From assembly GCA_003645255.1 (NCBI GenBank), contig QNES01000020.1:1-38913 (forward strand): DNA of 38,913 nt, read 5' to 3'. The notes under the pieces were generated by a model, which did no database searches, was not told where the DNA came from, and worked only from the letters and a program-made list of their open reading frames with translations. The position numbers and the translations under genes are program-made. Every line of letters begins with the position of its first letter. Positions within the stretch are counted from its first letter, which is position 1. The stretch comes from Gammaproteobacteria bacterium (GTDB lineage: Bacteria > Pseudomonadota > Gammaproteobacteria > Beggiatoales > Beggiatoaceae). Below, one piece after another: positions 15,357 to 27,710 of the stretch.

Positions 15357-15435
15357 AGGGGCAACCACAAGGGATTGCCCATACAAAGCGTCGATGACTG
15401 AAGGGTTGCCCTGATTATTTCAGGCACGTTCCTAA
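15357..15435. repeat. Dispersed repeat (GGGGCAACC...TTGCCC plus CAGGCACGTTCCT)
   Basis: gggcaacc/gattgccc hairpin at 15358-15380, then ggttgccctgattatttcag and caggcacgttcct (15421-15433). A second copy of the tail with a related hairpin is at 17131-17186. The element overlaps the last bases of the polyphosphate:AMP phosphotransferase gene. Confidence 0.6.
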
Positions 15436-16919
15436 TCTAATGCCTTTTCTAAATATTTACACATCGTTTTCAACACTTGTACACGCGCAAAACGTTTATC
15501 ATCACCTGCTACCAACATCCACGGCGCAAAATCTGTACTCGTTCGTGCCACCATTTCATTAACGGCAAGGCTATAGTTTTCCCATTTTTCCCGATTGCGC
15601 CAATCTTCTTCCGTAATTTTATGCTGTTTATACGGAATTTTCTCACGTTCTTTAAAACGACGCAATTGTTCATCCTGACTAATATGTAGCCAAAATTTAA
15701 GGATAATACTACCATGTTTAACGAGTTGCTCTTCAAAATCGTTGATTTCTAAATAAGCTCGTTGCCATTCTTTTTCCTGGGCAAAACCTTCAACGCGCTC
15801 TACTAATACGCGTCCATACCAAGAACGATCATAAATAGTCACCCTACCCGCACGGGCAATATGTCGCCAAAATCGCCATAAATAGTGATGAGCACGTTCT
15901 TCATCTGTCGGTGCGGCGCTCGAAATGACTCGATACAATCGCGCATCCATTGCCTGAGTTATTCGCCGAATCGCACCGCCCTTACCGCCTGCATCCCAGC
16001 CCTCAAATACAATAATAGTCGAACACTTTTTTTCATACGCAGCCCAAGCCAGGCGGTGTAATTTACCTTGATAAGTTTCTAACTCCTTACGATAATCTTT
16101 ACTCCGCAATTTTTGACTTAAATCCACAGTATCCAAAATCGTTTTAGAATCAGATGATTGGATAGGGGGAAATTGGGTTGCTGCCACCTGCTCAGTATTC
16201 GACTTGGATTGAGCATCAAGATGCTTACGCAAAGTTTCTAACACGGTATGTGCTACAGTTAAATTACGATAACACCAATCTGTCGCCTCTACCAATAACC
16301 ACGGGGCATTACCAGAATCGGTATGTCGAATCGCCTGTTCTGCGGTTTTAACAAATTGTTCATACAAGTCAGCATGCTTCCAATCTCGTTTAGAAACGGA
16401 ACGCTTCGTATGCGGATTGGTTTCAAGCTTTTTTAAGCGTTTATGTTGTTCCTTTTGGGACAGGTGTAACCAAAATTTTAGAATTAATGCGCCATCTTCT
16501 ACCAACATGGTTTCAAAACGACGTATGTGTGTCATCGCTTCATTGAACTGCACGGTATCCATTTTTTGATAAGCGGTTTTCACGATGGGCTCGACATACC
16601 AGCCTCCAAAAAACACCCCAATGCGTCCTCGCGCCGGTAAACTTCGCCAAAATCGCCAGTAATAGGGACGTTCACTTTCTTCATCAGTCAGTGAATCAAT
16701 GGCTATCGTTTCCAAGCCGCGTGTATCTAACCATTCATTCAGGGCATTAACCACATCGCCCCGCCCTGCACCATCAATCCCAGACACAATAATAATGACA
16801 GGCGTATTCGTTTTGCTTAAAGCAAATTGTGCTTGCAATAATTCTGCCCTTAATTCGGGCAACTGTTTTTTATAGTCTTTCCTATCAATCTGCCTATTCA
16901 ATTCTGCGGTTTCAAACAT
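15432..16919 (-). CDS. pap: Polyphosphate:AMP phosphotransferase (PPK2 family, two-domain)
   Basis: 495 residues made of two PPK2 domains in tandem, the usual layout of class II PAP enzymes, which use polyphosphate to convert AMP to ADP. Domain 1 carries Walker A SGIDGAGRGDVVNAL (residues ~46-60) and a Walker B/lid segment RIGVFFGGWYVEP. Domain 2 carries EGWDAGGKGGAIRRIT (second Walker A), WRFWRHIARAGR and the lid YDRSWYGRVLVERVEGF. Domain 2 has the complete catalytic set. Domain 1 has FGGWY in place of DRSWY, as expected for the non-catalytic half in this family. It is cytoplasmic. Polyphosphate use fits large sulfur bacteria that store it (inference). ATG 16919 gives the standard N-terminus (MFETAELNRQID). 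It is convergent with hpt. Confidence 0.92.
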   Translation of the reverse strand: MFETAELNRQIDRKDYKKQLPELRAELLQAQFALSKTNTPVIIIVSGIDGAGRGDVVNALNEWLDTRGLETIAIDSLTDEESERPYYWRFWRSLPARGRIGVFFGGWYVEPIVKTAYQKMDTVQFNEAMTHIRRFETMLVEDGALILKFWLHLSQKEQHKRLKKLETNPHTKRSVSKRDWKHADLYEQFVKTAEQAIRHTDSGNAPWLLVEATDWCYRNLTVAHTVLETLRKHLDAQSKSNTEQVAATQFPPIQSSDSKTILDTVDLSQKLRSKDYRKELETYQGKLHRLAWAAYEKKCSTIIVFEGWDAGGKGGAIRRITQAMDARLYRVISSAAPTDEERAHHYLWRFWRHIARAGRVTIYDRSWYGRVLVERVEGFAQEKEWQRAYLEINDFEEQLVKHGSIILKFWLHISQDEQLRRFKEREKIPYKQHKITEEDWRNREKWENYSLAVNEMVARTSTDFAPWMLVAGDDKRFARVQVLKTMCKYLEKALD

Positions 16920-17455
16920 AATAAATTGACTCTATGTAAAGTTGAAATATTGTATATCTTCACCCAATTTAAAATTTAACTTCGCACTGTTGCAACTGAC
17001 AACCTATTAATAATTGTAATTAATAATTATACTTTCCAGTATCACAACCAGATAGATTAGGAACATGCATGAACTAGAGCAACTAAATTGCACCTACATA
17101 ATATAAAGTTTAGCTTCCCTTCCGTAAGTCTCGTAGGGGTTCCCTTGTGGTTACCCTAAAATTATCGATCAGGCACGTTCCTTAATATTATAATGCGAAA
17201 TCACAGCCGTTTTAAAGAATTAAACTCCGATTTTGCCATTTGAAAAAGTGGATAATAATTTATTTATTTGAATATCTATATGATATACTTTAAACGGTTG
17301 AAATTTGGACTTCTATATAGGATGGGTAAAGTCTTGCCCAACGAAAAAATACGAAAAACGATTTGAAAATAAACAATTTAAGTACTTATATATAACGATG
17401 AGAGCCTTAGCGAGGGCTAACACGTAAAGCTGCCCCTACTGATTAAAAAAAAATA
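16920..17455. other. 536-bp intergenic region between divergent genes
   Basis: AT-rich with no gene visible. It holds a dispersed repeat at 17131-17186 (gtaggggttcccttgtgg ... caggcacgttcct, related to 15357-15435) and direct repeats attaataatt around 17005-17028. It must hold the promoters of the phosphotransferase (-) and of the lipid synthase (+). The synthase ATG 17456 follows an A-tract with no recognisable Shine-Dalgarno sequence. Confidence 0.5.
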
Positions 17456-20400
17456 ATGGAAAAAATTGCAATCATCGGTCTCTCTTGCCTACTTCCAGGG
17501 GCTGATAACCCTGAACAATATTGGCAAAACCTCATTGACAATAAAAATTTGACCTCAAAGGCAACCGTTGAGCAAATAGGTGTAGATGCCCAAATTTTTT
17601 ATGATCCCATCAAGGGCAAAACCGATAAATACTATTGTATGAACGGTGGCTATATTCGAAATTTTCAATTTGATGCCAGTGGCTATCAAATTTTGCCTGA
17701 TGTGCTGAAAAAATTGGATAAATTGTATCAATGGTCGCTCTATGTCTCGAAACAAGCTTTACAAGATAGTGGTTATTTAGGGAATAATGCAGCACTTAGT
17801 CAGTGTGGTGTTATTTTAGGGAATCTCTCTTTTCCGACTAAGCTCTCCCACCATTTATTTGAACCTATTTACCATAAAACACTGGAATCCGCTATTCAGA
17901 CATTATTACAGCGCGACACTTTCAGCTTGAAAAGTGTAGAAACGGATGTGTCACCTCTAAATGCGTTGATTTCAGGTTATCCAGCCACCCTTATTGCTCA
18001 GGGCTTATCTTTATCAGGACCCCACTTGTCTTTAGATGCTGCTTGTGCGTCATCACTTTACGCTGTCAAATTGGCTTGTCAATATTTATCATCTGGCAAA
18101 GCTGACTTGATGTTAGCTGGTGCTGTCAGTGCTGCTGATCCTTTATTTATCAAAATGGGATTTTCCATATTTCAAGCCTATCCAGAAAATGGCAAAAGTC
18201 GTCCTTTTGATAAATCATCCGGCGGACTTTTTGCTGGGGAAGGGGCTGGTATTTTAGTTCTAAAACGCTACCATGACGCGATTCGAGATGGTGATAAGAT
18301 TTATGCCACTATCGGTGGAATCGGCTTATCAAATGATGGCAGAGGGAAATTTGTACTTAATCCCAATCCGAAGGGACAATTGCTGGCATTTGAACGGACA
18401 TACAGCAATGCCGGTATCAACCAAAATGAAATTGATTATATTGAGTGTCATGCCACTGGTACACCGGTTGGTGATATTGCTGAACTTAATTCAATGGAAG
18501 CCTTTTTTGGAGATGCCACACCTTTGCTAGGGGCAGTCAAATCTAATTTAGGTCACTTATTGACCACCGCCGGCATGGCAAGTTTGATTAAAGTTATTTT
18601 AAGCATGGCTAAGGGGGTTATTCCAGCCACAATTAATTTGAAAGAGCCCTTGACTTCAAATAAGGGCTTGTTTTCCATTGAGCAAATGGTTAGAACGATT
18701 ACACCGTGGCCTCAAAAAAATCATCATAAACGCGCTGCCGTTAGTACCTTTGGTTTCGGTGGTACCAATGCCCATCTTATTTTAGAAGAGTTAGAGGTTC
18801 CCAATTCCCAACTTCCAATTCCCAATGAACCTAGCAGGAACGAAGTTTCGCCATTTCCAATTAAACTTGCCATTATCGGCATGGATGCTTTTTTTGGAGG
18901 CTGTCACGGATTAGATGCTTTTGATCGTACTATTTATGACGGTACTCAACATTTTATTCCCGTTCCACCAGAAAGATGGCAAGGTATTGACACGCAAAAC
19001 GAATGGCTCAAAAATAATGGTTTTGAAAAGGGCGAAGCGCCTTTGGGTGCTTATATTCAAGATTTTGACATGGATTTCCTACATTTTAAAATTCCCCCTC
19101 GTGATGAAGATCAACTTATTCCACAACAATTGTTGATGCTCAAAGTAGCTGATAATGCAATCAAAGATGCAGGATTAGTTGAAGGTGGAAACGTTGCCGT
19201 TATTGTAGCGATGGGAACGGAATTAGCTTTACACCAGTTTTTAGGGCGATGTGATTTATCTTGGCAAATAAAAGAAAGTTTGGCACAAGCCAATATTGTT
19301 TTGTCTCCTGACAAAACTGAAGAATTAGAGGCGATTGCTAAAAATAGTCTTTTTCCACCAGCGCAACTCAATCAATATACAAGCTTTATTGGCAATATCA
19401 TGGCAACCCGTATTGCGACGCAATGGAATTTTAATGGCCCCGCTTTTACCATTTCGGCTGAAGAAAATTCCGTATTTAGCGCGTTGGAAGTCGCTCAACA
19501 GTTTCTGGATGCTGGCGAAGTTGACGCAGTTGTCGTGGGTGCCGTTGATTTAGCGGGAAGTTTTGAGCATGTTCTATTACGCCATCAATTAGCACCTATT
19601 AACAGCGGTGTCAATACCTTCAGCTATGATGAAAAAGTCAATGGTTGGATGGTGGGTGAAGGTGCAGGCGCGGTGGTTTTAAAACGCTTTGACACTGCAT
19701 CGCAAGATCGCATTTATGCCGTCATTGATGCCATTAGTTTAATCGCAAATAAGGCTAACAACGATTCTTTAGGACATTTACCAAAAACACCCACTGATGA
19801 AACCGTTACTCATTCTTGCCAGCGAGCTTTTGAGGTTGCAGGTATAAAAGCCACTGATATAGGCTATATGGAAGTATTTGGTAGTGGAGTAGCACAAGAA
19901 GACGAAGTCGAAATTAAAGGCTTAACCAATGCTTATCAAACTCAAAATGATTTATTGACAACAGCAATAGGCAGTGTAAAAGCCAATATTGGTCATACTT
20001 ATGCCGCTTCCGGCATGGCGAGTTTAATCAAAACAGCATTGTGCCTATATCATCATTATATTCCAGCGGTTCCGCAATGGGAAAGCCCAAAAATGCCTGA
20101 GCAATGGCAAGGCAGTCCTTTTTATGTTGCCACTAAATCAAAAACATGGTTTTTGGAAGAAAGCCAATCTAAAAGAGTGGCAAGCATTAACGGCTTAGGG
20201 CTTGATGGTACTTATGCACATTTAATTTTATCTGAAGACCAAAGTTCAAGGCGTATCGAAGCTGAATTGGATAAATACCGACAACAAGCACCGTTTTATC
20301 TTTTTCCTATAGCGGCTGATAATCAGTCGGTTTTGCTCAAGCAACTTAACGAATTACAAAATACGATTGAAAAGAGTGATAATCTGGGTGTGACAGCGAG

Positions 20401-23400
20401 CCAAACGTTTGCCACTTTTCAAAATCAACCAGAAGCAAATTACCGGTTATCTATTGTTGGCCATCATCAAAACGAATTGCTTCAACAAATTGCTTTTGCG
20501 ATGCAAGGTGTTAAAAAAGCTTTTGCAACCGGGAAGGAGTGGAAAACACCGTTGGGTAGCTATTTTACGGCAAAGCCTTTAGAAAAAGTGGCGTTTGTTT
20601 ATCCGGCGATGGGCACAACTTATATTGGTTTGGGACGGGATATATTTCGACAATATCCGACACTTTATGAAACATCAACACTGGGTAATCTAGTCGATAC
20701 GCTACTGCATGATAAATTGCTCTATCCTCGGAGTTTGGAAAAACTCCCCATAAAGAAACAACAAGAGATTGAAGCACAATTACACAATAGTGGCGTAGCT
20801 ATGTGCCAAATTGGTATCAGTTTTGATGTATTACACACTTCGATTTTAAGGGATTATTTCCAAATTCAACCCCAAGCTGCCTTTGGATATAGCCAAGGGG
20901 AATTGAGCGGTATGATGTATGCGCTGGGTGTTTGGCGTGATAATAAGTTAAATGAAGATTTGGCTTCATCACCTCTTTATCAAACGCAATTAACAGGTCC
21001 TTGTATAGCGGCACGTCAATTTTGTGGATTGCCCCAGAATTTGCCAACAAAAGACGTTTGGCGTTCTTATGTACTTAAAGCTTCAGCAACTGCTGTCAAA
21101 GATATTCTCAAACGTGAAAAAAATGTCTATTTGACATTTATTAGCACACCTGAAGAAGTCACTATCGCCGGTGAGCCAAAAGCTTGTTTGAGAGTGATTA
21201 AAACGCTTAAGTGCCAGCATTTTCTTATCCCGTTTAACAATGCTTCACACTGTGAAGTCGCACAATCTGAATATGAAGCACTGGTTCAAATACATCTCCA
21301 AAAAGTGCATAAAATACCAGATATTACATTTTATTCAGCCGTTGATTGTGCGCCGTTGCCTTTCGACAGCCATTATATTGCCCATAACGCGGCGAAACTG
21401 AGCTGTCAAACGGTTGATTTTCCAGCCATCATTAATCGTGTTTACGAAGATGGGTTTAGAGTATTTATTGAACTTGGGGCGGGAAACAGTTGCACTCAAT
21501 GGATTGATGAAACATTGAAAGGCAAAGAGCATGTTGCTATGTCTATCAATAGCAAAGGGCTTGATGATCAAACAGGAATTGTCAAAATGTTAGCCAAATT
21601 GGTGAGCCACCGTGTTTCGATGGATTTATCACCGCTTTATCCCATGAAGGATTCCAAAAAACGTAAATCACTGATTAAAAAAATTATATTAGGGGGGAAA
21701 CCCATTCATACCACCATCTTGACTGATGAAAATCGGAAAAGCTTTGAAAATCAAATTATATCTCATAGTCCAATGTTAAAGATAATTCAGTTGCAAATAG
21801 CGGGTGCGATGCAAAGTTCCACAGCTAAAGCGTTGACACCACGCGATGACGTGATTTGGGATGAGGCAGATTTGCTGGAATTTGCCGAAGGCAAAATTGC
21901 CAATGTTTTTGGTCCAGAATATGCCATTATCGACTCATACTCTCGCCGGGTGCAATTGCCTCTACCACCTTATTTACTAGTGAGTCGCGTCACGAAACTT
22001 AATGCTGAAAAGGGTAGTTTTAAACCTTGTACGCTGACCACCGAATATGATGTTCCCCACAATATGTGGTATTCGGTGGATGGTCAAATTCCCTGGGCTG
22101 TTTCCGTCGAATCGGGGCAGTGCGATTTGTTATTAATCAGTTATTTAGGGATAGATTTTGAGAATAAAGGTATTCTTGTTTATCGCCTACTTGATTGCAC
22201 CATGACATTTTTAGAGGATATACCGACAGAAGGAGATACCCTGCGTTATGATATTTCTATCAATTCCTTTGTCAGACACGGCAATAATTTGCTGTTTTTC
22301 TTCAGTTACGACTGTTTTGTGGGTGATAAAATGGTGCTGACGATGGAGGGTGGCTGTGCTGGGTTCTTTACTGATGATGAACTAGATAAAGGTAAGGGGG
22401 TTGTTTATTCTAAAAAAGAATTGCTAGAACGCGATAAAATCCAAAAACAACAATTTGAACCTTTGCTGATTTGCCAAAAATCCTTTTTTGAGCAAAAAGA
22501 TATGATACAGCTGACTGAGGGCAACATCGCTGCTTGTTTTGGTGAGCATTATAGGCAAGCCGGATTAAACCCTTCTTTGCGAGTTCCCCCAAAACAAATT
22601 TTGATGATTGATCAAGTGACATCAGTGGATTTCAATGGGGGCGCGTATGGCTTGGGTTTGATTGTCGGTGAAAAAGTGCTTGAACCAGAGCATTGGTATT
22701 TTCCTTGCCATTTTAAAGATGATCAAGTGATGGCGGGTTCATTAATGGCTGAAGGGTGTGGTCAACTTTTGCAATTTTATCTATTGTATTTGGGTTTCCA
22801 AACTTGCACCACCGATGCGCGTTTTCAACCCATTCCAAATTTACGACAAGTCGTTCGCTGCCGGGGGCAAGTTACACCTATTTCAGCTACCTTGATTTAT
22901 CGGTTGGAAATCACTAAATTGGGTTTAAGCCCAAAACCTTATGCAAAAGGGGACGTAGAAATTATCTTGAATGGCAAAATCGTCGTGCATTTTAAAGATG
23001 TCGGGGTGCAACTCTCTGAAAAAAATCAGTCTCTTTCCGTTGAAGATAACAAGGAACCATTAGCGAGTTTAGTCAAATTACCCAATAAATCGGCTTTATT
23101 GAATGAAGAGCAAATCCAAGAATTTTGCCTCGGTTCAGTGGGCAAGTGTTTTGGACCGGAATTTGATATTTATGACACTGGTGAAATCACTGCGTCACGG
23201 ATGCCCAATACACACCTGAATTTCGTGCATCGCGTATTGGAAGTTCAAGGTGAACGACATAAATTCACCCCAAAGTCAACGATTATAACGGAATATGATG
23301 CGCCGATAGAAACTTGGTATTACCGTCATAATTCATCAGATACAATTCCGTACTCCGTTTTGATGGAAATCGCTTTGCAACCCAATGGTTTTCTATCGGC

Positions 23401-24247
23401 TTATTTGGGCACAACTTTGCTGTATCCCACAGATAGTTTATACTTTCGTAACCTGGATGGACGCGGGCGCATTCTTAAAAAGGTGGATATTCGCGGCAAA
23501 ACTGTGACAAATAGATCACGATTACTGTCGCAATCTAACATTCAGGGCATGATTATTCAAAGTTTTGATTTTGAAATGCTTTGTGATGGCGAACCGTTTT
23601 ATCAAGGCGATGCCAGCTTTGGTTTTTTCAGTGGAAACGCTTTGGCTAATCAAGTCGGGTTAGATAGAGGTAAAGATATTCGCCCTTGGGTTGAAAATAC
23701 CGGTGGCTTACCAGTAGCCAGTATTGATTTGAGTAGCCAAAAAAACCGTAATCGTTTTTATAATATTAATGCTGAACAGCCTCATTATCGGTTAGCGCAA
23801 CATCAGTTAGATTTGCTTAATTTCGTTCAGATTGTGGAAGGCGGGGGAAGCCATCAGCAAGGCTATATCTATGCAAAAAAAGAGGTTAAGTTTACTGACT
23901 GGTTTTTTAAATGCCATTTTCACCAGGATCCTGTTATGCCAGGCTCATTAGGCGTTGAAGCCATTTTGCAAGCGATGCAAGTTTATGCACTTCAGCTTGA
24001 TTTGGGTAAACACTTGAAGTCTCCCCGTTTTGCACAACTCATAGATCATGAGATCATTTGGAAATATCGTGGGCAGATTCCGCAACCCGAAGTTCACACT
24101 GATATGTATTTAGAAGTACATCTATCTAAAGTGGAAATCAGCAATGATAAAGTCACTCTCATTGGTGATGCCAGTTTGTGGAAACCTAAGTTGAGGATTT
24201 ATGAAGTGAAAAATGTAGCGGTTTGTTTGTTGGAATCGTCATTATAA
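17456..24247 (+). CDS. PUFA/secondary-lipid synthase subunit, KS-CLF-AT-DH-DH (PfaC-like with internal AT)
   Basis: 2263 residues. KS (1-450) has the full triad C197 (DAACASSL), H332 (ECHATGTP) and H367 (SNLGHL). A second KS fold (~468-930) has the Cys replaced by Glu669 (TISAEENSVFSAL) and the first His replaced (EVFGSGV), so it is a chain-length factor. The acyltransferase (~1010-1370) has S1146 in FGYSQGELSG and H1265. Two double-hotdog FabA-like dehydratases follow. H1752 (PCHFKDDQVMAG) and H2154 (KCHFHQDPVMPG) are their active-site His, and the preceding hotdogs lack it. The parts match marine PfaC, but the AT (PfaB in Shewanella) is built in, as I recall for myxobacterial Pfa3. There is no ACP or KR. 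A PfaD reductase follows, so this is a cytoplasmic long-chain polyunsaturated acid or related lipid synthase. A heterocyst-glycolipid-type product is the alternative. Confidence 0.88.
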   Translation: MEKIAIIGLSCLLPGADNPEQYWQNLIDNKNLTSKATVEQIGVDAQIFYDPIKGKTDKYYCMNGGYIRNFQFDASGYQILPDVLKKLDKLYQWSLYVSKQALQDSGYLGNNAALSQCGVILGNLSFPTKLSHHLFEPIYHKTLESAIQTLLQRDTFSLKSVETDVSPLNALISGYPATLIAQGLSLSGPHLSLDAACASSLYAVKLACQYLSSGKADLMLAGAVSAADPLFIKMGFSIFQAYPENGKSRPFDKSSGGLFAGEGAGILVLKRYHDAIRDGDKIYATIGGIGLSNDGRGKFVLNPNPKGQLLAFERTYSNAGINQNEIDYIECHATGTPVGDIAELNSMEAFFGDATPLLGAVKSNLGHLLTTAGMASLIKVILSMAKGVIPATINLKEPLTSNKGLFSIEQMVRTITPWPQKNHHKRAAVSTFGFGGTNAHLILEELEVPNSQLPIPNEPSRNEVSPFPIKLAIIGMDAFFGGCHGLDAFDRTIYDGTQHFIPVPPERWQGIDTQNEWLKNNGFEKGEAPLGAYIQDFDMDFLHFKIPPRDEDQLIPQQLLMLKVADNAIKDAGLVEGGNVAVIVAMGTELALHQFLGRCDLSWQIKESLAQANIVLSPDKTEELEAIAKNSLFPPAQLNQYTSFIGNIMATRIATQWNFNGPAFTISAEENSVFSALEVAQQFLDAGEVDAVVVGAVDLAGSFEHVLLRHQLAPINSGVNTFSYDEKVNGWMVGEGAGAVVLKRFDTASQDRIYAVIDAISLIANKANNDSLGHLPKTPTDETVTHSCQRAFEVAGIKATDIGYMEVFGSGVAQEDEVEIKGLTNAYQTQNDLLTTAIGSVKANIGHTYAASGMASLIKTALCLYHHYIPAVPQWESPKMPEQWQGSPFYVATKSKTWFLEESQSKRVASINGLGLDGTYAHLILSEDQSSRRIEAELDKYRQQAPFYLFPIAADNQSVLLKQLNELQNTIEKSDNLGVTASQTFATFQNQPEANYRLSIVGHHQNELLQQIAFAMQGVKKAFATGKEWKTPLGSYFTAKPLEKVAFVYPAMGTTYIGLGRDIFRQYPTLYETSTLGNLVDTLLHDKLLYPRSLEKLPIKKQQEIEAQLHNSGVAMCQIGISFDVLHTSILRDYFQIQPQAAFGYSQGELSGMMYALGVWRDNKLNEDLASSPLYQTQLTGPCIAARQFCGLPQNLPTKDVWRSYVLKASATAVKDILKREKNVYLTFISTPEEVTIAGEPKACLRVIKTLKCQHFLIPFNNASHCEVAQSEYEALVQIHLQKVHKIPDITFYSAVDCAPLPFDSHYIAHNAAKLSCQTVDFPAIINRVYEDGFRVFIELGAGNSCTQWIDETLKGKEHVAMSINSKGLDDQTGIVKMLAKLVSHRVSMDLSPLYPMKDSKKRKSLIKKIILGGKPIHTTILTDENRKSFENQIISHSPMLKIIQLQIAGAMQSSTAKALTPRDDVIWDEADLLEFAEGKIANVFGPEYAIIDSYSRRVQLPLPPYLLVSRVTKLNAEKGSFKPCTLTTEYDVPHNMWYSVDGQIPWAVSVESGQCDLLLISYLGIDFENKGILVYRLLDCTMTFLEDIPTEGDTLRYDISINSFVRHGNNLLFFFSYDCFVGDKMVLTMEGGCAGFFTDDELDKGKGVVYSKKELLERDKIQKQQFEPLLICQKSFFEQKDMIQLTEGNIAACFGEHYRQAGLNPSLRVPPKQILMIDQVTSVDFNGGAYGLGLIVGEKVLEPEHWYFPCHFKDDQVMAGSLMAEGCGQLLQFYLLYLGFQTCTTDARFQPIPNLRQVVRCRGQVTPISATLIYRLEITKLGLSPKPYAKGDVEIILNGKIVVHFKDVGVQLSEKNQSLSVEDNKEPLASLVKLPNKSALLNEEQIQEFCLGSVGKCFGPEFDIYDTGEITASRMPNTHLNFVHRVLEVQGERHKFTPKSTIITEYDAPIETWYYRHNSSDTIPYSVLMEIALQPNGFLSAYLGTTLLYPTDSLYFRNLDGRGRILKKVDIRGKTVTNRSRLLSQSNIQGMIIQSFDFEMLCDGEPFYQGDASFGFFSGNALANQVGLDRGKDIRPWVENTGGLPVASIDLSSQKNRNRFYNINAEQPHYRLAQHQLDLLNFVQIVEGGGSHQQGYIYAKKEVKFTDWFFKCHFHQDPVMPGSLGVEAILQAMQVYALQLDLGKHLKSPRFAQLIDHEIIWKYRGQIPQPEVHTDMYLEVHLSKVEISNDKVTLIGDASLWKPKLRIYEVKNVAVCLLESSL

Positions 24248-24252
24248 TTTCA

Positions 24253-24366
24253 CCCTTGTCTGAATCAGAATTTTCAAAATTTCAGAATTAACAGAATAAA
24301 ATCTATAGTATTTCAGATAAAGATTTTGCCCAAAAACCTCCGAGGTTTGCCAAACCTCAGAGGTTT
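24253..24366. repeat. Two repeat units between the synthase genes
   Basis: 24253-24296 carries the cttgtctgaatcagaatt repeat also seen at 6045-6062. 24334-24348 (aaacctccgaggttt) pairs with 24352-24366 at 14 of 15 positions around a 3-base loop. The hairpin could reduce read-through from the large subunit gene into the PfaD gene. Confidence 0.7.
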
Positions 24367-24438
24367 AGGTTTGAGATATTTTTCTGAAAAGCTATAATAT
24401 TCCTAAAATTCTAACAAAATTATTTTCAAAGGAAAAAA

Positions 24439-26055
24439 ATGTCAACAATACCTAACAATGGACTCCATTTTGGGGGGCAGACTAGCAGTCAAAATCCTAT
24501 TTGGCAAGGCTCCTTAAATTCTATTGCCTTTGATGAAAAAGGTATCAAAGCCAAATTGCTGAATTTAGCTCAACCCTGTTATGTTGTCAGAAAACAAGGA
24601 CAAATTGGCATGACCAATGAAGGTGAATTGGGTGATGCCAATGAAAATACGCAGGTAGAAACCCTAACAGCTGTGCCACCGTTATTACCTCAACAATTGG
24701 GTGATCGCCGTTTTCTGGATTATTATGGGCTGGAATATGCTTATGTTGGCGGTGCAATGGCAAATGGTATCGCCTCAGAAGAAATGGTTATCGCCTTGGG
24801 AAAAGCAAAAATGTTGGGTTCTTTTGGCGCGGGTGGCTTAGTTCCTTCCCGAATTGAAACAGCGATTCAACGCATTCAAGCGGCATTGCCCGAAGGACCT
24901 TATGCCTTTAATTTTCTTCACAGTCCCAAGGAACCGGCTATTGAGCGAAGTACAGTTGATCTTTATCTCAAATATGGCGTAACCACGATAGAAGCGGCGG
25001 CATTTCTGAATCTAACACCTAATATTGTTTACTATCGCGCTGCTGGACTCAGTCTCAATTCTGCCAATCAAATCGAAATGAAAAACCGAGTAATTGGCAA
25101 AATTTCTCGGCGCGAAATGGCAACGCAATTTATGCAGCCTGCTCCAACCAAAATTCTCCAACAACTGGTTGCACAAGGACTTATTACAGAGTTGCAAGCA
25201 AAGCTTGCTGAAAAAGTGCCGATGGCAGACGATATTACCGTTGAAGCGGATTCAGGTGGACATACCGATAATCGTCCGTTGGTGTGCTTACTTCCTTCGA
25301 TTCTTGAACTGAGAAATGAAATTCAAGCACAATATACCTATAAAAATCCGATTCGAGTAGGTGCAGCCGGTGGAATTGCTACACCACAATCCGCTTTAGC
25401 TGCCTTTATGATGGGGGCTGATTACATAGTCACCGGTTCTATTAATCAGTCTTGTGTTGAAGCGGGCACTTCTGATTATGCTAAAAAACGGCTGGTTCAA
25501 ACGGGTATGACTGATATTATGATGGCGCCGGCAGGGGATATGTTTGAAATGGGGGTAAAAGTCCAAGTTCTGAAAAAAGGGAGTATGTTTGGCATGCGAG
25601 CCCAGAAACTGTTTGAATTGTACAAAACTTATGATGCCATTTCTGACATTCCGCCGGCAGAAACAGAAAAATTAGAAAAACAAGTCTTTAAAAAGCCACT
25701 TGATACCATTTGGCAGGAAACGGAAGCTTATTTTTCAAAACGTGATCCTGAACAAATAAGCAAAGCTGCTGATGATCCTAAACGTAAAATGGCTTTGATT
25801 TTTCGCTGGTATTTAGGGCAAACCTCCCGATGGGCTATTGCCGGAGAAAAAGGGCGTGAGATGGATTATCAAATTTGGTGCGGTCCAGCAATGGGGGCTT
25901 TTAATGATTGGGTGAAAGGTTCACACCTAGCAGAAGCGGATAATCGGCGTGTTGTTGACGTTGCTCACCTTATGATGAAAGGTGCCGCATTTTTATATCG
26001 GCAACACAATTTGAAACTGCAAGGATTGTCGATGTCGGCGCGGTTTGTTCCCTAA
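24439..26055 (+). CDS. pfaD: PfaD-type enoyl reductase (FMN, 2-nitropropane dioxygenase fold)
   Basis: 538 residues, the usual PfaD length. The N-terminal cap has QPCYVVRKQGQIGMTNEGE, and the TIM-barrel has YVGGAMANGIASEEMVIAL, GSFGAGGLVPSRIE, TVEADSGGHTDNRPL (FMN-proximal, like the SGGHT of nitronate monooxygenases), RVGAAGGIATPQSALAAFMM and ADYIVTGSINQSCVEAGTS. In PUFA synthases this protein is the separate enoyl reductase that uses NADPH and FMN to saturate selected double bonds of the ACP-bound chain. It lies 191 bases after the KS-CLF-AT-DH-DH gene on the same strand. ATG 24439 has a good ribosome site (AAGGAAAAAA). The C-terminal ~130 residues include a helical extension (FRWYLGQTSRWAIAGEKGRE) common to PfaD. 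Active-site-like motifs all appear intact. Confidence 0.93.
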   Translation: MSTIPNNGLHFGGQTSSQNPIWQGSLNSIAFDEKGIKAKLLNLAQPCYVVRKQGQIGMTNEGELGDANENTQVETLTAVPPLLPQQLGDRRFLDYYGLEYAYVGGAMANGIASEEMVIALGKAKMLGSFGAGGLVPSRIETAIQRIQAALPEGPYAFNFLHSPKEPAIERSTVDLYLKYGVTTIEAAAFLNLTPNIVYYRAAGLSLNSANQIEMKNRVIGKISRREMATQFMQPAPTKILQQLVAQGLITELQAKLAEKVPMADDITVEADSGGHTDNRPLVCLLPSILELRNEIQAQYTYKNPIRVGAAGGIATPQSALAAFMMGADYIVTGSINQSCVEAGTSDYAKKRLVQTGMTDIMMAPAGDMFEMGVKVQVLKKGSMFGMRAQKLFELYKTYDAISDIPPAETEKLEKQVFKKPLDTIWQETEAYFSKRDPEQISKAADDPKRKMALIFRWYLGQTSRWAIAGEKGREMDYQIWCGPAMGAFNDWVKGSHLAEADNRRVVDVAHLMMKGAAFLYRQHNLKLQGLSMSARFVP

Positions 26056-26123: not shown

Positions 26124-27710
26124 TCACTTTGATTCATCAATAAGCCAATTATTGCTTGCATCCTTTACTAATTTAAACGTGTGACTATTATCAACAACAC
26201 GCCCTTTTCTCTTAAAATAACGCAAACTGACTTTGACTATGGCAGTATTATCATGCTGTTCCTGCACATTCACATTCAAAACATCAACTTGACGGATAGT
26301 TTTCCACCATCTGAGGTAAGCATCTTCTTTATAACTCCCATCAGCGTTACAGCAATGAAATTGATCTTTGAAATGATGTGACAACATCAACCAAGTTTTA
26401 TCATGCTGCTGATTGCTAATTGCAGTGTAGTAATCTTGAATAAATTGCGCAGGTTCCACTTGAGGCGGCTGTTCAACCGGTACTGTTTCTGGCAGAGGTG
26501 TGTTAATGGGTGCTGTTTCCGCGGGCGGCGGTTCTGCTAAAGGCGGCACATTCTTCACCTCTGGTGGCGTTTTAACGGGAGGGCTTGGTAGTTCTTCAGC
26601 AACGGGCTCCTTAGCTTCTTGAGCAGTATCCATCGGTGGTGTGAAGAAAGCAACTTGCTTCTTATCGGCTTCTTTAAGAGTCGTAGCTGTATTTTCAGAC
26701 ACAGGTTGCTCCTTTGATTTCGTATAGAAAAAATAAGCCCCCCCTATCAATCCGCCTACTATTATCACCGCCACAATTCCGACAGCGGCACGTTTAAATA
26801 GATGAAATAAGGTTGATTTCGGTGTCGAATCTTGTCGCTGAATTTCTTCAGCCCATTCTTCCACCGTTTGTGGACGTTCGGTTTCTCGTGTTTCCAGTGT
26901 CCAATCAATGGTTTCCAATAATTCTTCAGAATAGCGTCCACGACCCACTTCAACGGCTGGTGTTAAAGGATCGGATTGATTATAGAGAATCGCGTCAACG
27001 CGCTGTGTGGATTCAACGGGTGTTGTACCACCGATCATCCAATATAATACGGCTCCGAAGGCATAAATATCTGTCCATGGTCCATCATTGCCCTTATATT
27101 GATATTGTTCAAAGGGCGTATAGCCTGGAACCAGTATCGAAGTAATGCCACGATGACTCATATAATAATGGTTCATGCCTAAACCCATTAATACAGGACT
27201 GTTATCTTTCTCTCGTAAGTAAATATTCTCCGGTTTGATATTGCGGTGCCAATATTCCGCTTGATGAAGAATTTCTAAAGCCGCTAAAATGGGAGATAAT
27301 ATAGCCCTTAACTCATCTTCAGTGGCGGAATTTTCTTTAAACCGCTCCGCCAAACTTTCTCCAGCTTCATAATCCATCACCATATAAGCCGTATTATTGG
27401 CACGAAAAAAATCTTTTAGACGTACCAAGTTAGGATGAACCAACGGTTTTAAGGTGCGGGCTTCCTGGATAAATTGTTCAAGCCCCCAGGTAAAATCATC
27501 AGCTTCTTGTTGAGATTTAGGCTGCACCGTATCATCATCCTGACGCACGGCAAGTTTGCTTGGTAAATATTCTTTTATAGTGACTAGCGTATCTGCCTCT
27601 TTAGCAAGATAAGTGATGCTAGAACTCATCCGCTCTAAAACAGATTCGATACGATACACCTGTAATTGATAGCCCTGAGGAAGGGCATCATTATTAGCTG
27701 ATATAGACAT
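26124..27710 (-). CDS. Membrane-anchored Ser/Thr pseudokinase with C-terminal NTF2-like domain
   Basis: The kinase fold covers residues ~14-290, with K46 (VTIKEYLP), E83, Y/M hinge AYMVMDYEAGESL and the F-helix PWTDIYAFGAVLYWM. The catalytic HRD is H155-R156-N157 (YWHRNIKPENIYL), and the DFG metal loop is G176-L177-G178 (VLMGLGMN). Both aspartates needed for phosphotransfer are gone, so it should be inactive. Active relatives have HRDIKP and LLDFGAA. A membrane helix follows (~308-328), then a Pro/Glu-rich stretch (~355-420) and an outer domain (FIQDYYTAISNQQHDKTWLM...NNWLIDES) like NTF2/SnoaL folds. Topology is therefore kinase fold inside and small domain outside. It is convergent with pfaD, so no operon link. 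A regulatory or scaffold role is inferred. ATG 27708-27710 starts it, with a weak ribosome site. Confidence 0.85.
   Translation of the reverse strand: MSISANNDALPQGYQLQVYRIESVLERMSSSITYLAKEADTLVTIKEYLPSKLAVRQDDDTVQPKSQQEADDFTWGLEQFIQEARTLKPLVHPNLVRLKDFFRANNTAYMVMDYEAGESLAERFKENSATEDELRAILSPILAALEILHQAEYWHRNIKPENIYLREKDNSPVLMGLGMNHYYMSHRGITSILVPGYTPFEQYQYKGNDGPWTDIYAFGAVLYWMIGGTTPVESTQRVDAILYNQSDPLTPAVEVGRGRYSEELLETIDWTLETRETERPQTVEEWAEEIQRQDSTPKSTLFHLFKRAAVGIVAVIIVGGLIGGAYFFYTKSKEQPVSENTATTLKEADKKQVAFFTPPMDTAQEAKEPVAEELPSPPVKTPPEVKNVPPLAEPPPAETAPINTPLPETVPVEQPPQVEPAQFIQDYYTAISNQQHDKTWLMLSHHFKDQFHCCNADGSYKEDAYLRWWKTIRQVDVLNVNVQEQHDNTAIVKVSLRYFKRKGRVVDNSHTFKLVKDASNNWLIDESK

Follow-up and report, generated by a model that had tools for sequence, protein, structure and literature searches.

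A fused pfaBC and an adjoining pfaD in a Beggiatoaceae genome as probable parts of a dispersed polyunsaturated fatty acid synthase

The window analysed here is the entire contig C20 (38,913 bases) of a 4.41-Mb genome (313 contigs, 96.7% complete) from the Beggiatoaceae, the family that also includes Ca. Parabeggiatoa sp. nov. 2 4572_84 and Thiomargarita sp. CSMAG_1650. Two consecutive open reading frames (ORFs) on its forward strand, pfaBC, opening with ATG, and pfaD, encode a candidate part of a synthase for polyunsaturated fatty acids (PUFA). The pfaBC protein, composed of a ketosynthase (KS), a chain-length factor (CLF), an acyltransferase (AT) and two FabA-type dehydratase (DH) units, gives Pfam matches to ketoacyl synthase in two stretches and to FabA in two (1.1e-77). 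The protein encoded behind it scores 672.9 bits on the NCBIfam PfaD model (cut-off 449.25), with 4yx6, named omega-3 polyunsaturated fatty acid synthase subunit PfaD, as its best solved match (4.6e-199). An earlier note, made from the letters of the window, had read the pair as a KS-CLF-AT-DH-DH protein followed by PfaD, an arrangement that the ORFs, Pfam and NCBIfam bear out (Table 1).

The KS triad of pfaBC is intact, and its cysteine is conserved in 19/19 rows of the KS alignment. Local alignment of the KS with the CLF sets Glu670 at the cysteine position, in place of the Glu669 given in the earlier note, whose other catalytic residues (the KS triad, AT Ser1146, His1752 and His2154) stand. 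The CLF motif SAEENSV is identical in solved chain 6riw, which shares 90-94% identity with the PfaC proteins of three Moritella loci, so the glutamate is the normal state for a PfaC. Over KS-CLF, pfaBC shares 53% identity with 6riw at 888 bits, against 306 bits for the next solved chain, a polyketide synthase (PKS), and an ordinary type I PKS identity is rejected on this difference. The tree placement proposed earlier for the KS agrees, grouping the window KS-CLF with Pfa and heterocyst glycolipid (Hgl) synthase rows, away from the outgroups.

The AT is of the PfaB type. Its Acyl_transf_1 match is weak (23.1 bits against a Pfam cut-off of 32.7), its score on the NCBIfam PfaB model is 143.9 bits, slightly below the cut-off of 144.3, and its best solved match is PfaBs 9ry8 (2.9e-38), which comes from S. 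baltica (PMC12895367). A malonyl transferase identity is rejected, given GYS instead of GHS and the PfaB match. The meaning of the AT motif is taken from the description in PMC12895367, where the bacterial form is [NT]A[IM]H[ST]; the NASH of pfaBC agrees with it only partly. The Xenococcus AT (L067) carries GFCMG at its active site, with cysteine in place of serine. The closest relative of the window gene, the pfaBC of Parabeggiatoa sp. nov. 1 (L064 4264-5817), has a NAD_binding_4 (thioester-reductase-like) domain, in frame, between its AT and DH parts. The FabA-type histidine of both DH units is conserved in 16/16 rows possessing these units.

Table 1. Features of the window around the pfaBC and pfaD genes
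Feature	Position	Strand	Evidence
pfaBC gene, KS-CLF-AT-DH-DH, 2263 aa	17456..24247	+	Pfam, NCBIfam, solved-structure matches, motifs
KS domain, ~residues 1-450, Cys197/His332/His367	17456..18805	+	Pfam, 6riw match, motifs
CLF domain, ~residues 469-935, Glu670 at KS-cysteine position	18860..20260	+	6riw match, KS/CLF alignment
AT domain, PfaB type, ~residues 1020-1400, GYSQG (Ser1146), NASH (His1265)	20513..21655	+	NCBIfam, 9ry8, motifs
First FabA-type dehydratase unit, ~residues 1461-1860, His1752	21836..23035	+	Pfam, structure match, motif
Second FabA-type dehydratase unit, ~residues 1891-2263, His2154	23126..24244	+	Pfam, NCBIfam, motif
pfaD gene, enoyl reductase of PfaD family, 538 aa	24439..26055	+	NCBIfam, 4yx6 match
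Dispersed intergenic repeat copy, just upstream of pfaBC	17284..17335	.	Genome repeat search
Flank, outside system: polyphosphate:AMP phosphotransferase	15432..16919	-	Pfam, NCBIfam
Flank, outside system: kinase-like protein without catalytic Asp of HRD	26124..27710	-	Pfam, motif reading

Profile searches of the whole genome locate the remaining Pfa components on other contigs. On C20 the PfaA profile matches nothing except the pfaBC protein itself, and the contig holds neither a PP-binding match nor a PF01648 phosphopantetheinyl transferase (PPTase) match, so that the earlier observation of no PfaA or PPTase nearby holds. The PfaA model is matched above its cut-off on contig C150 (10,635 bases), which carries two pfaA genes. 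pfaA1 (P0003) encodes 1253 aa with a KS, a malonyl-loading domain (MAT) and one acyl carrier protein (ACP) domain, and scores 1550 bits on its own (cut-off 1010.1). pfaA2 (P0004), 29 bases further on, encodes 1149 aa with a ketoreductase (KR), a PKS-type DH and a PF01553 acyltransferase domain; it spans the C-terminal part of the PfaA model up to residue 824, then runs into PF01553. All of the KS, MAT, ACP and KR of PfaA are thus present on C150, divided over two genes with a single ACP. The earlier note had placed the ACP/KR subunit elsewhere, which these genes confirm, dismissing the absence of any ACP-bearing partner; the tandem ACP expected in a PfaA-type protein (KS-MAT-tandem ACP-KR) is not found in them. 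After pfaA2, the start of an AMP-binding ligase is cut by the contig end.

The PPTase sought in the genome is likewise present. The PF01648 search gives one match, a 248-aa protein on contig C31 bearing FNLSH and YGRP by eye, in agreement with the P1b and P1a motifs that PMC3098273 gives for the PUFA type; its P0 motif agrees only approximately (VRTTLS). The best NCBIfam model for this protein is HetI, at 144.3 bits well below the cut-off of 370. A PPTase distant from the pfa cluster was already known (PMC4882568), which removes the novelty that the earlier note saw in this separation. Each of the four own pfa genes reads through without interruption, with the examined motifs retained. A further type I PKS-like frame of 1282 aa (KS-AT-ACP) lies at C22:32750-35716, close to a contig end.

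Related clusters in the family are organised differently. Parabeggiatoa sp. nov. 3 (L065) carries pfaA1, pfaA2, a FAD-oxidoreductase gene, pfaBC and pfaD on one contig, and Thiomargarita (L066) has pfaA2, pfaBC and pfaD together; its pfaA1 lies on another contig, at whose end a pfaA2 begins. In 4572_84, pfaA is a single 2455-aa protein adjoining pfaBC, and PfaD is on another contig; its pfaBC is split into two frames near the DH-unit boundary (L063 ~15541), which may be real or an assembly error. Because all four pfa genes are clustered in Parabeggiatoa 3, we regard the window arrangement as a dispersed form, which is unusual; with pfaA1-pfaA2 and pfaBC-pfaD on different contigs, the two pairs are at least ~13 kb apart unless the assembly is wrong. 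Copies of a 52-bp dispersed repeat lie just upstream of pfaBC and just downstream of pfaA2 (C150 10098-10148). The repeat has 21 genome matches at E <= 0.001, including the copy upstream of pfaBC (window 17275-17345), and given this number a role in splitting the pfa genes is possible only. In Parabeggiatoa 3 the FAD gene that separates pfaA2 from pfaBC (L065 7711-9129) is flavin amine oxidase-like, with LkcE as its best solved match, and the window genome matches it over 45 residues and nothing beyond. Identity of this gene with the isomerase-like gene of cyanobacterium G1188 was considered and is unsupported (37% over 68 residues, in the nucleotide-binding part).

Two features of the PfaA side stand out. 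The first is the acyltransferase domain ending pfaA2, which resembles 1-acylglycerol-3-phosphate acyltransferase (AGPAT) and scores 36.5 bits on PF01553 (cut-off 23). Canonical AGPAT/PlsC motifs are H-x4-D and EGTR; here 7/7 aligned rows read NHQV(G/A)(V/I)ES (H-x4-E) and V(D/E/Q)GTR. The domain is present on pfaA2 in all four Beggiatoaceae with a locus covering that region, and the same fusion occurs in the cyanobacteria Xenococcus and G1188. Domain maps of the clusters of cyanobacteria G936 and G949 contain no AGPAT, and in Trichodesmium the matching piece is fragmentary, carries a stop codon and sits on a separate contig. The 2016 review PMC4882568 restricts AGPAT to the Type L pfa3 of myxobacteria; by that account a position on the PfaA side is unusual, and a later report may exist. 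The second feature is the ACP number, counted as LGIDSIK motifs. One motif is found in 5/5 Beggiatoaceae loci, two in the five DH-bearing cyanobacteria described below, one in G962 and G1123, two or three in the remaining cyanobacterial clusters, and three to seven in the gammaproteobacterial rows, of which two Moritella-order rows have seven and six. The single ACP throughout the five Beggiatoaceae clusters is unusual, with a repeat collapsed in assembly as a possible alternative.

The distribution of these genes is patchy. A PfaD orthologue (77% or more) is present in 6/42 Beggiatoaceae genomes (the window genome, G019, G060, G061, G013 and G030), and four more of the 42 give PfaD matches of 50% or less only. 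Among cyanobacteria, 44/386 genomes match pfaBC at 1e-180; with two candidates scored per genome, only Xenococcus (G063) among the matches listed spans the DH-DH part. With DH-DH as query, 18/388 genomes of the Xenococcus order match at 1e-60, including G063, G064, G936, G949 and G1188 at 68-74% identity in frames of 2307-2369 aa; domain maps give KS-CLF-AT-DH-DH in all five. Among the other DH-DH matches, the frame of G1062 is shorter, and the remainder are for the most part pfa-like clusters at ~50%. Matches occur in 27/119 genomes of the Moritella order (1e-150) and, class-wide, in 10/369 including the window genome (1e-120), where G669 and G769 also encode KS-CLF-AT-DH-DH fusions. The G1188 cluster sits on a 6.6-Mb contig, which makes binning error unlikely for the cyanobacterial clusters. 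This cluster (L173 7856-9145, 9251-10966; L174 2-4675) includes a 2b9w-like protein, another FAD protein whose MCRA match is weak, and nonribosomal peptide synthetase (NRPS) modules with a thioesterase ahead of PfaD.

Kinship was examined in short-search trees of KS-CLF (34 rows), KS-MAT (22 rows), PfaD (21 rows) and a concatenation of 11 segments (21 rows). KS-CLF rows cover >680 query residues at >340 bits, plus two joined Hgl rows, with four duplicate loci omitted; the outgroups are three to six divergent Pfa- or PKS-like rows and include no modular PKS panel. Beggiatoaceae form one clade throughout (KS-CLF 100, KS-MAT 99, PfaD 99, concatenation 100). With the root chosen on the gammaproteobacterial rows, the concatenation joins them to the five DH-bearing cyanobacteria (100); the next group outward consists of the Hgl clusters and the other pfa-like ones of cyanobacteria (100). 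Six divergent rows root the KS-MAT tree, which concurs (93 and 91). The KS-CLF tree, rooted on three long rows, dissents, uniting gammaproteobacterial Pfa, DH-bearing cyanobacteria and Beggiatoaceae (91) with Hgl outside, as does the PfaD tree, where Hgl is closer to Beggiatoaceae than Xenococcus and Trichodesmium are (83). A split of all cyanobacterial rows from Beggiatoaceae plus gammaproteobacteria is rejected (p 3.2e-12), and a clade of Beggiatoaceae with the three AGPAT-matching cyanobacteria is not (p 0.184); for these tests the long-branched Leptolyngbyaceae row was dropped, and the p values are weakened by the naming of the groups after the concatenated tree was seen. Rejection of the cyanobacterial split makes horizontal transfer between cyanobacteria and Beggiatoaceae likely; if the root lies on the gammaproteobacterial side, transfer would have run from cyanobacteria. 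The Hgl lineage may have lost its DH units.

Within the family, own pfaA1 has the Parabeggiatoa 1 copy as its sister (98). Own pfaBC groups with Parabeggiatoa 1 and Thiomargarita (94), in an order that is not settled, its top identity being 86% to Parabeggiatoa 1, and own PfaD stands beside G061 and 4572_84 together (86). Concatenated C20 and C150 genes pair with Parabeggiatoa 1 (94 and 96), in agreement with one synthase encoded on two contigs.

The flanking genes, both on the opposite strand, are unrelated to the synthase, as the earlier note had said: a polyphosphate:AMP phosphotransferase on one side and, on the other, a kinase-like protein in which, by eye, HRN replaces HRD and DFG is absent, and which has a hydrophobic segment and a C-terminal tail. 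An Rfam search of the window returned zero matches at gathering scores.

Among known systems, the marine gammaproteobacterial PUFA synthases (Pfa Types A and B; Moritella) share domain types and motifs with the window genes, including the similarity of KS-CLF to 6riw and of PfaD to 4yx6; they differ in that here the AT is fused into PfaC, pfaA is split and pfaA2 has an AGPAT-like tail. Two Moritella-order clusters have seven and six ACPs against one here, and in the concatenated tree the window genes fall on another branch than the marine synthases. A fused pfaBC is common to Types C, D, H, I and K of Shulse and Allen 2011 (PMC3098273), a paper that gives KS-CLF-AT-DH2 in full for C and D, calls H and I pfaBC fusions and likens K to I; pfaA is split as well in Types D and H. 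Neither fusion nor split is therefore unusual, and the built-in AT that the earlier note had singled out is not new. Compared by description, Type D has five ACPs in pfaA1 and only a KR in pfaA2, against one ACP here, and the descriptions of these five types compared here (PMC3098273) mention no AGPAT. Myxobacterial Type L (Pfa1-3; Aetherobacter, Minicystis), as described in PMC4882568, resembles the window system in an AT between CLF and DH, an AGPAT, a PKS-type DH on the PfaA side and a PPTase at a separate locus. By the same description its AGPAT ends Pfa3, whereas here pfaBC ends with the second DH and the AGPAT-like domain ends pfaA2, and its enoyl reductase gene comes first, whereas pfaD follows pfaBC here, in Parabeggiatoa 3 and in Thiomargarita. 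Hgl synthases (Type F) are 55-60% identical in KS and 53-63% in CLF across four clusters and also fuse the AT with the CLF, but are without dehydratase/isomerase (DH/I) domains in the account of PMC3098273, against two FabA-type units here. Judged by sequence, the closest relatives outside Beggiatoaceae are the rare cyanobacterial synthases that keep FabA-type dehydratases (Xenococcus MO_188.B8, a Trichodesmium metagenome-assembled genome, G1188, G949 and G936), whose KS-CLF-AT-DH-DH, PfaD and PfaA parts are 45-82% identical by domain; they have two ACPs instead of one, with NRPS genes in Xenococcus and G1188. The window genome is unusual in its AGPAT-like domain on the PfaA side, in having one ACP only, in keeping pfaA apart from pfaBC-pfaD and in its affinity to cyanobacteria.

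These comparisons suggest that pfaBC and pfaD encode subunits of an iterative Pfa (PUFA) synthase, completed by pfaA1 and pfaA2 of C150 and presumably by the C31 PPTase, a reading to which we give a probability of roughly 70%. Following what is established for Pfa synthases, the PPTase would presumably activate the ACP of pfaA1, and the MAT would load malonyl onto this single carrier. Two-carbon elongation in each round would be carried out by the PfaA KS at first and then by the PfaC KS-CLF, with reduction by the KR each time. Dehydration combined with PfaD would then lead to a saturated chain; alternatively, dehydration with isomerisation by the FabA-type units would leave a cis double bond, giving a methylene-interrupted polyene, perhaps C18-C22, that arises without oxygen. 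The PfaB-type AT would handle the long chain, and the AGPAT-like domain would pass it to lysophosphatidate. The genes probably descend from an ancestral single cluster, tied by horizontal transfer to the rare cyanobacterial Pfa lineage and then broken apart in the window genome. A methylene-interrupted PUFA made without oxygen is predicted as the most likely product; the earlier caution that it need not be eicosapentaenoic (EPA) or docosahexaenoic acid (DHA) was right. In cyanobacterium G1188, the cluster protein that resembles 2b9w (7.7e-54), which we take to be the P. acnes PUFA isomerase, may be a hint of polyene production there. Six structures of the P. acnes enzyme are mentioned in PMC2885616, and 2b9w has six entries. 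In filaments of an Isobeggiatoa morphotype, a C20 PUFA makes up 7.2% of fatty acid methyl esters, and it is absent from a Beggiatoa morphotype (PMC4331518, which cites an older report of the same kind).

Several points weigh against this assignment. The PUFA of PMC4331518 comes from environmental filaments, and the window organism is only possibly an Isobeggiatoa; its product is a prediction from genes. Characterised Hgl synthases, on a neighbouring branch, do not make PUFA; their kinship, together with the NRPS genes in two cyanobacterial clusters, argues against a firm product claim. pfaA is unlinked to pfaBC in the window genome, the single-gene trees of own pfaBC and PfaD do not each give one sister, and in the same-genus genomes G001 and G002 PfaD is unmatched at 1e-60 and pfaBC is matched at the KS level at most. 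The own AGPAT-like domain reads NHQVGVES, with glutamate where the canonical motif has aspartate, so its function is putative. The reductase-like domain of Parabeggiatoa 1 pfaBC could change the released product, and products may therefore differ within the family.

If the system works like a heterocyst-glycolipid synthase, its product would instead be a chain of great length, saturated or hydroxylated, destined for a glycolipid of the envelope. Such a product would suit the relatedness to the Hgl-type synthases of cyanobacteria, which stand closest to Beggiatoaceae in the PfaD tree, the reductase-like domain inside Parabeggiatoa 1 pfaBC, and HetI as best model for the PPTase, far under its cut-off though it is. 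A DH-DH match above the identity cut is found in 0/4 Hgl-type clusters, while both DH units with their histidine motif occur in 5/5 Beggiatoaceae and 5/5 DH-bearing cyanobacteria; the FabA-type DH of pfaBC leads us to reject an Hgl identity and to rate this outcome as unlikely. We are slightly more sceptical of a hybrid NRPS or PKS metabolite that would carry the chain as its lipid tail: an AGPAT-like domain speaks for phospholipid, the few flanking ORFs scanned in Beggiatoaceae clusters include no NRPS, and the pfa stretches of G949 and G936 have no ORF >771 aa alongside, the 771-aa one in G949 being a topoisomerase. Set against this are the NRPS genes beside or within the Xenococcus and G1188 clusters, the hybrid Pfa-NRPS-PKS pathways described in PMC13291983, the AMP-binding ligase after pfaA2, and other long PP-binding frames in the own genome (e.g. 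C141, 1865 aa).

Dispersal also raises the thought that the genes are decaying relics, as the own genes lie on two contigs and 4572_84 has a broken pfaBC frame with PfaD on another contig; full-length reading frames and retained motifs in all four own genes make this improbable. Least credible is a long polyene hydrocarbon formed via the Ole pathway, suggested by the co-occurrence of pfa and ole genes in some bacteria (PMC4882568). Beyond the Pfa synthase assignment itself, we put forward only tentatively, and as doubtful in its entirety, a distinct O2-independent class of PUFA synthases with one or two ACPs and a PfaA-side lysophosphatidate acyltransferase, transferred between cyanobacteria and giant sulfur bacteria, that would be the source of the C20 PUFA of the filaments and from which Hgl synthases would derive by loss of the FabA-type dehydratases.

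The 4572_84 cluster was probably seen before, since a screen for hgl homologues names Beggiatoa sp. 4572_84 in its methods (PMC11804610); a literature search by title and abstract found no other publication on a PUFA synthase in Beggiatoaceae. The DH-keeping cyanobacterial lineage bears on a question posed in PMC11804610, namely whether the first hgl island made PUFA, and a one-ACP synthase with its own acyltransferase would offer biotechnology a compact design. In sediments, long-chain PUFA serve as algal markers, for example EPA for diatoms (PMC4550312), and a PUFA route in mat-forming sulfur bacteria, if true, would be a second source of such signals. The C20 PUFA reported from Isobeggiatoa filaments becomes testable through such a route, and the synthase of the window could explain the unusual fatty acids of sulfur-bacterial filaments.

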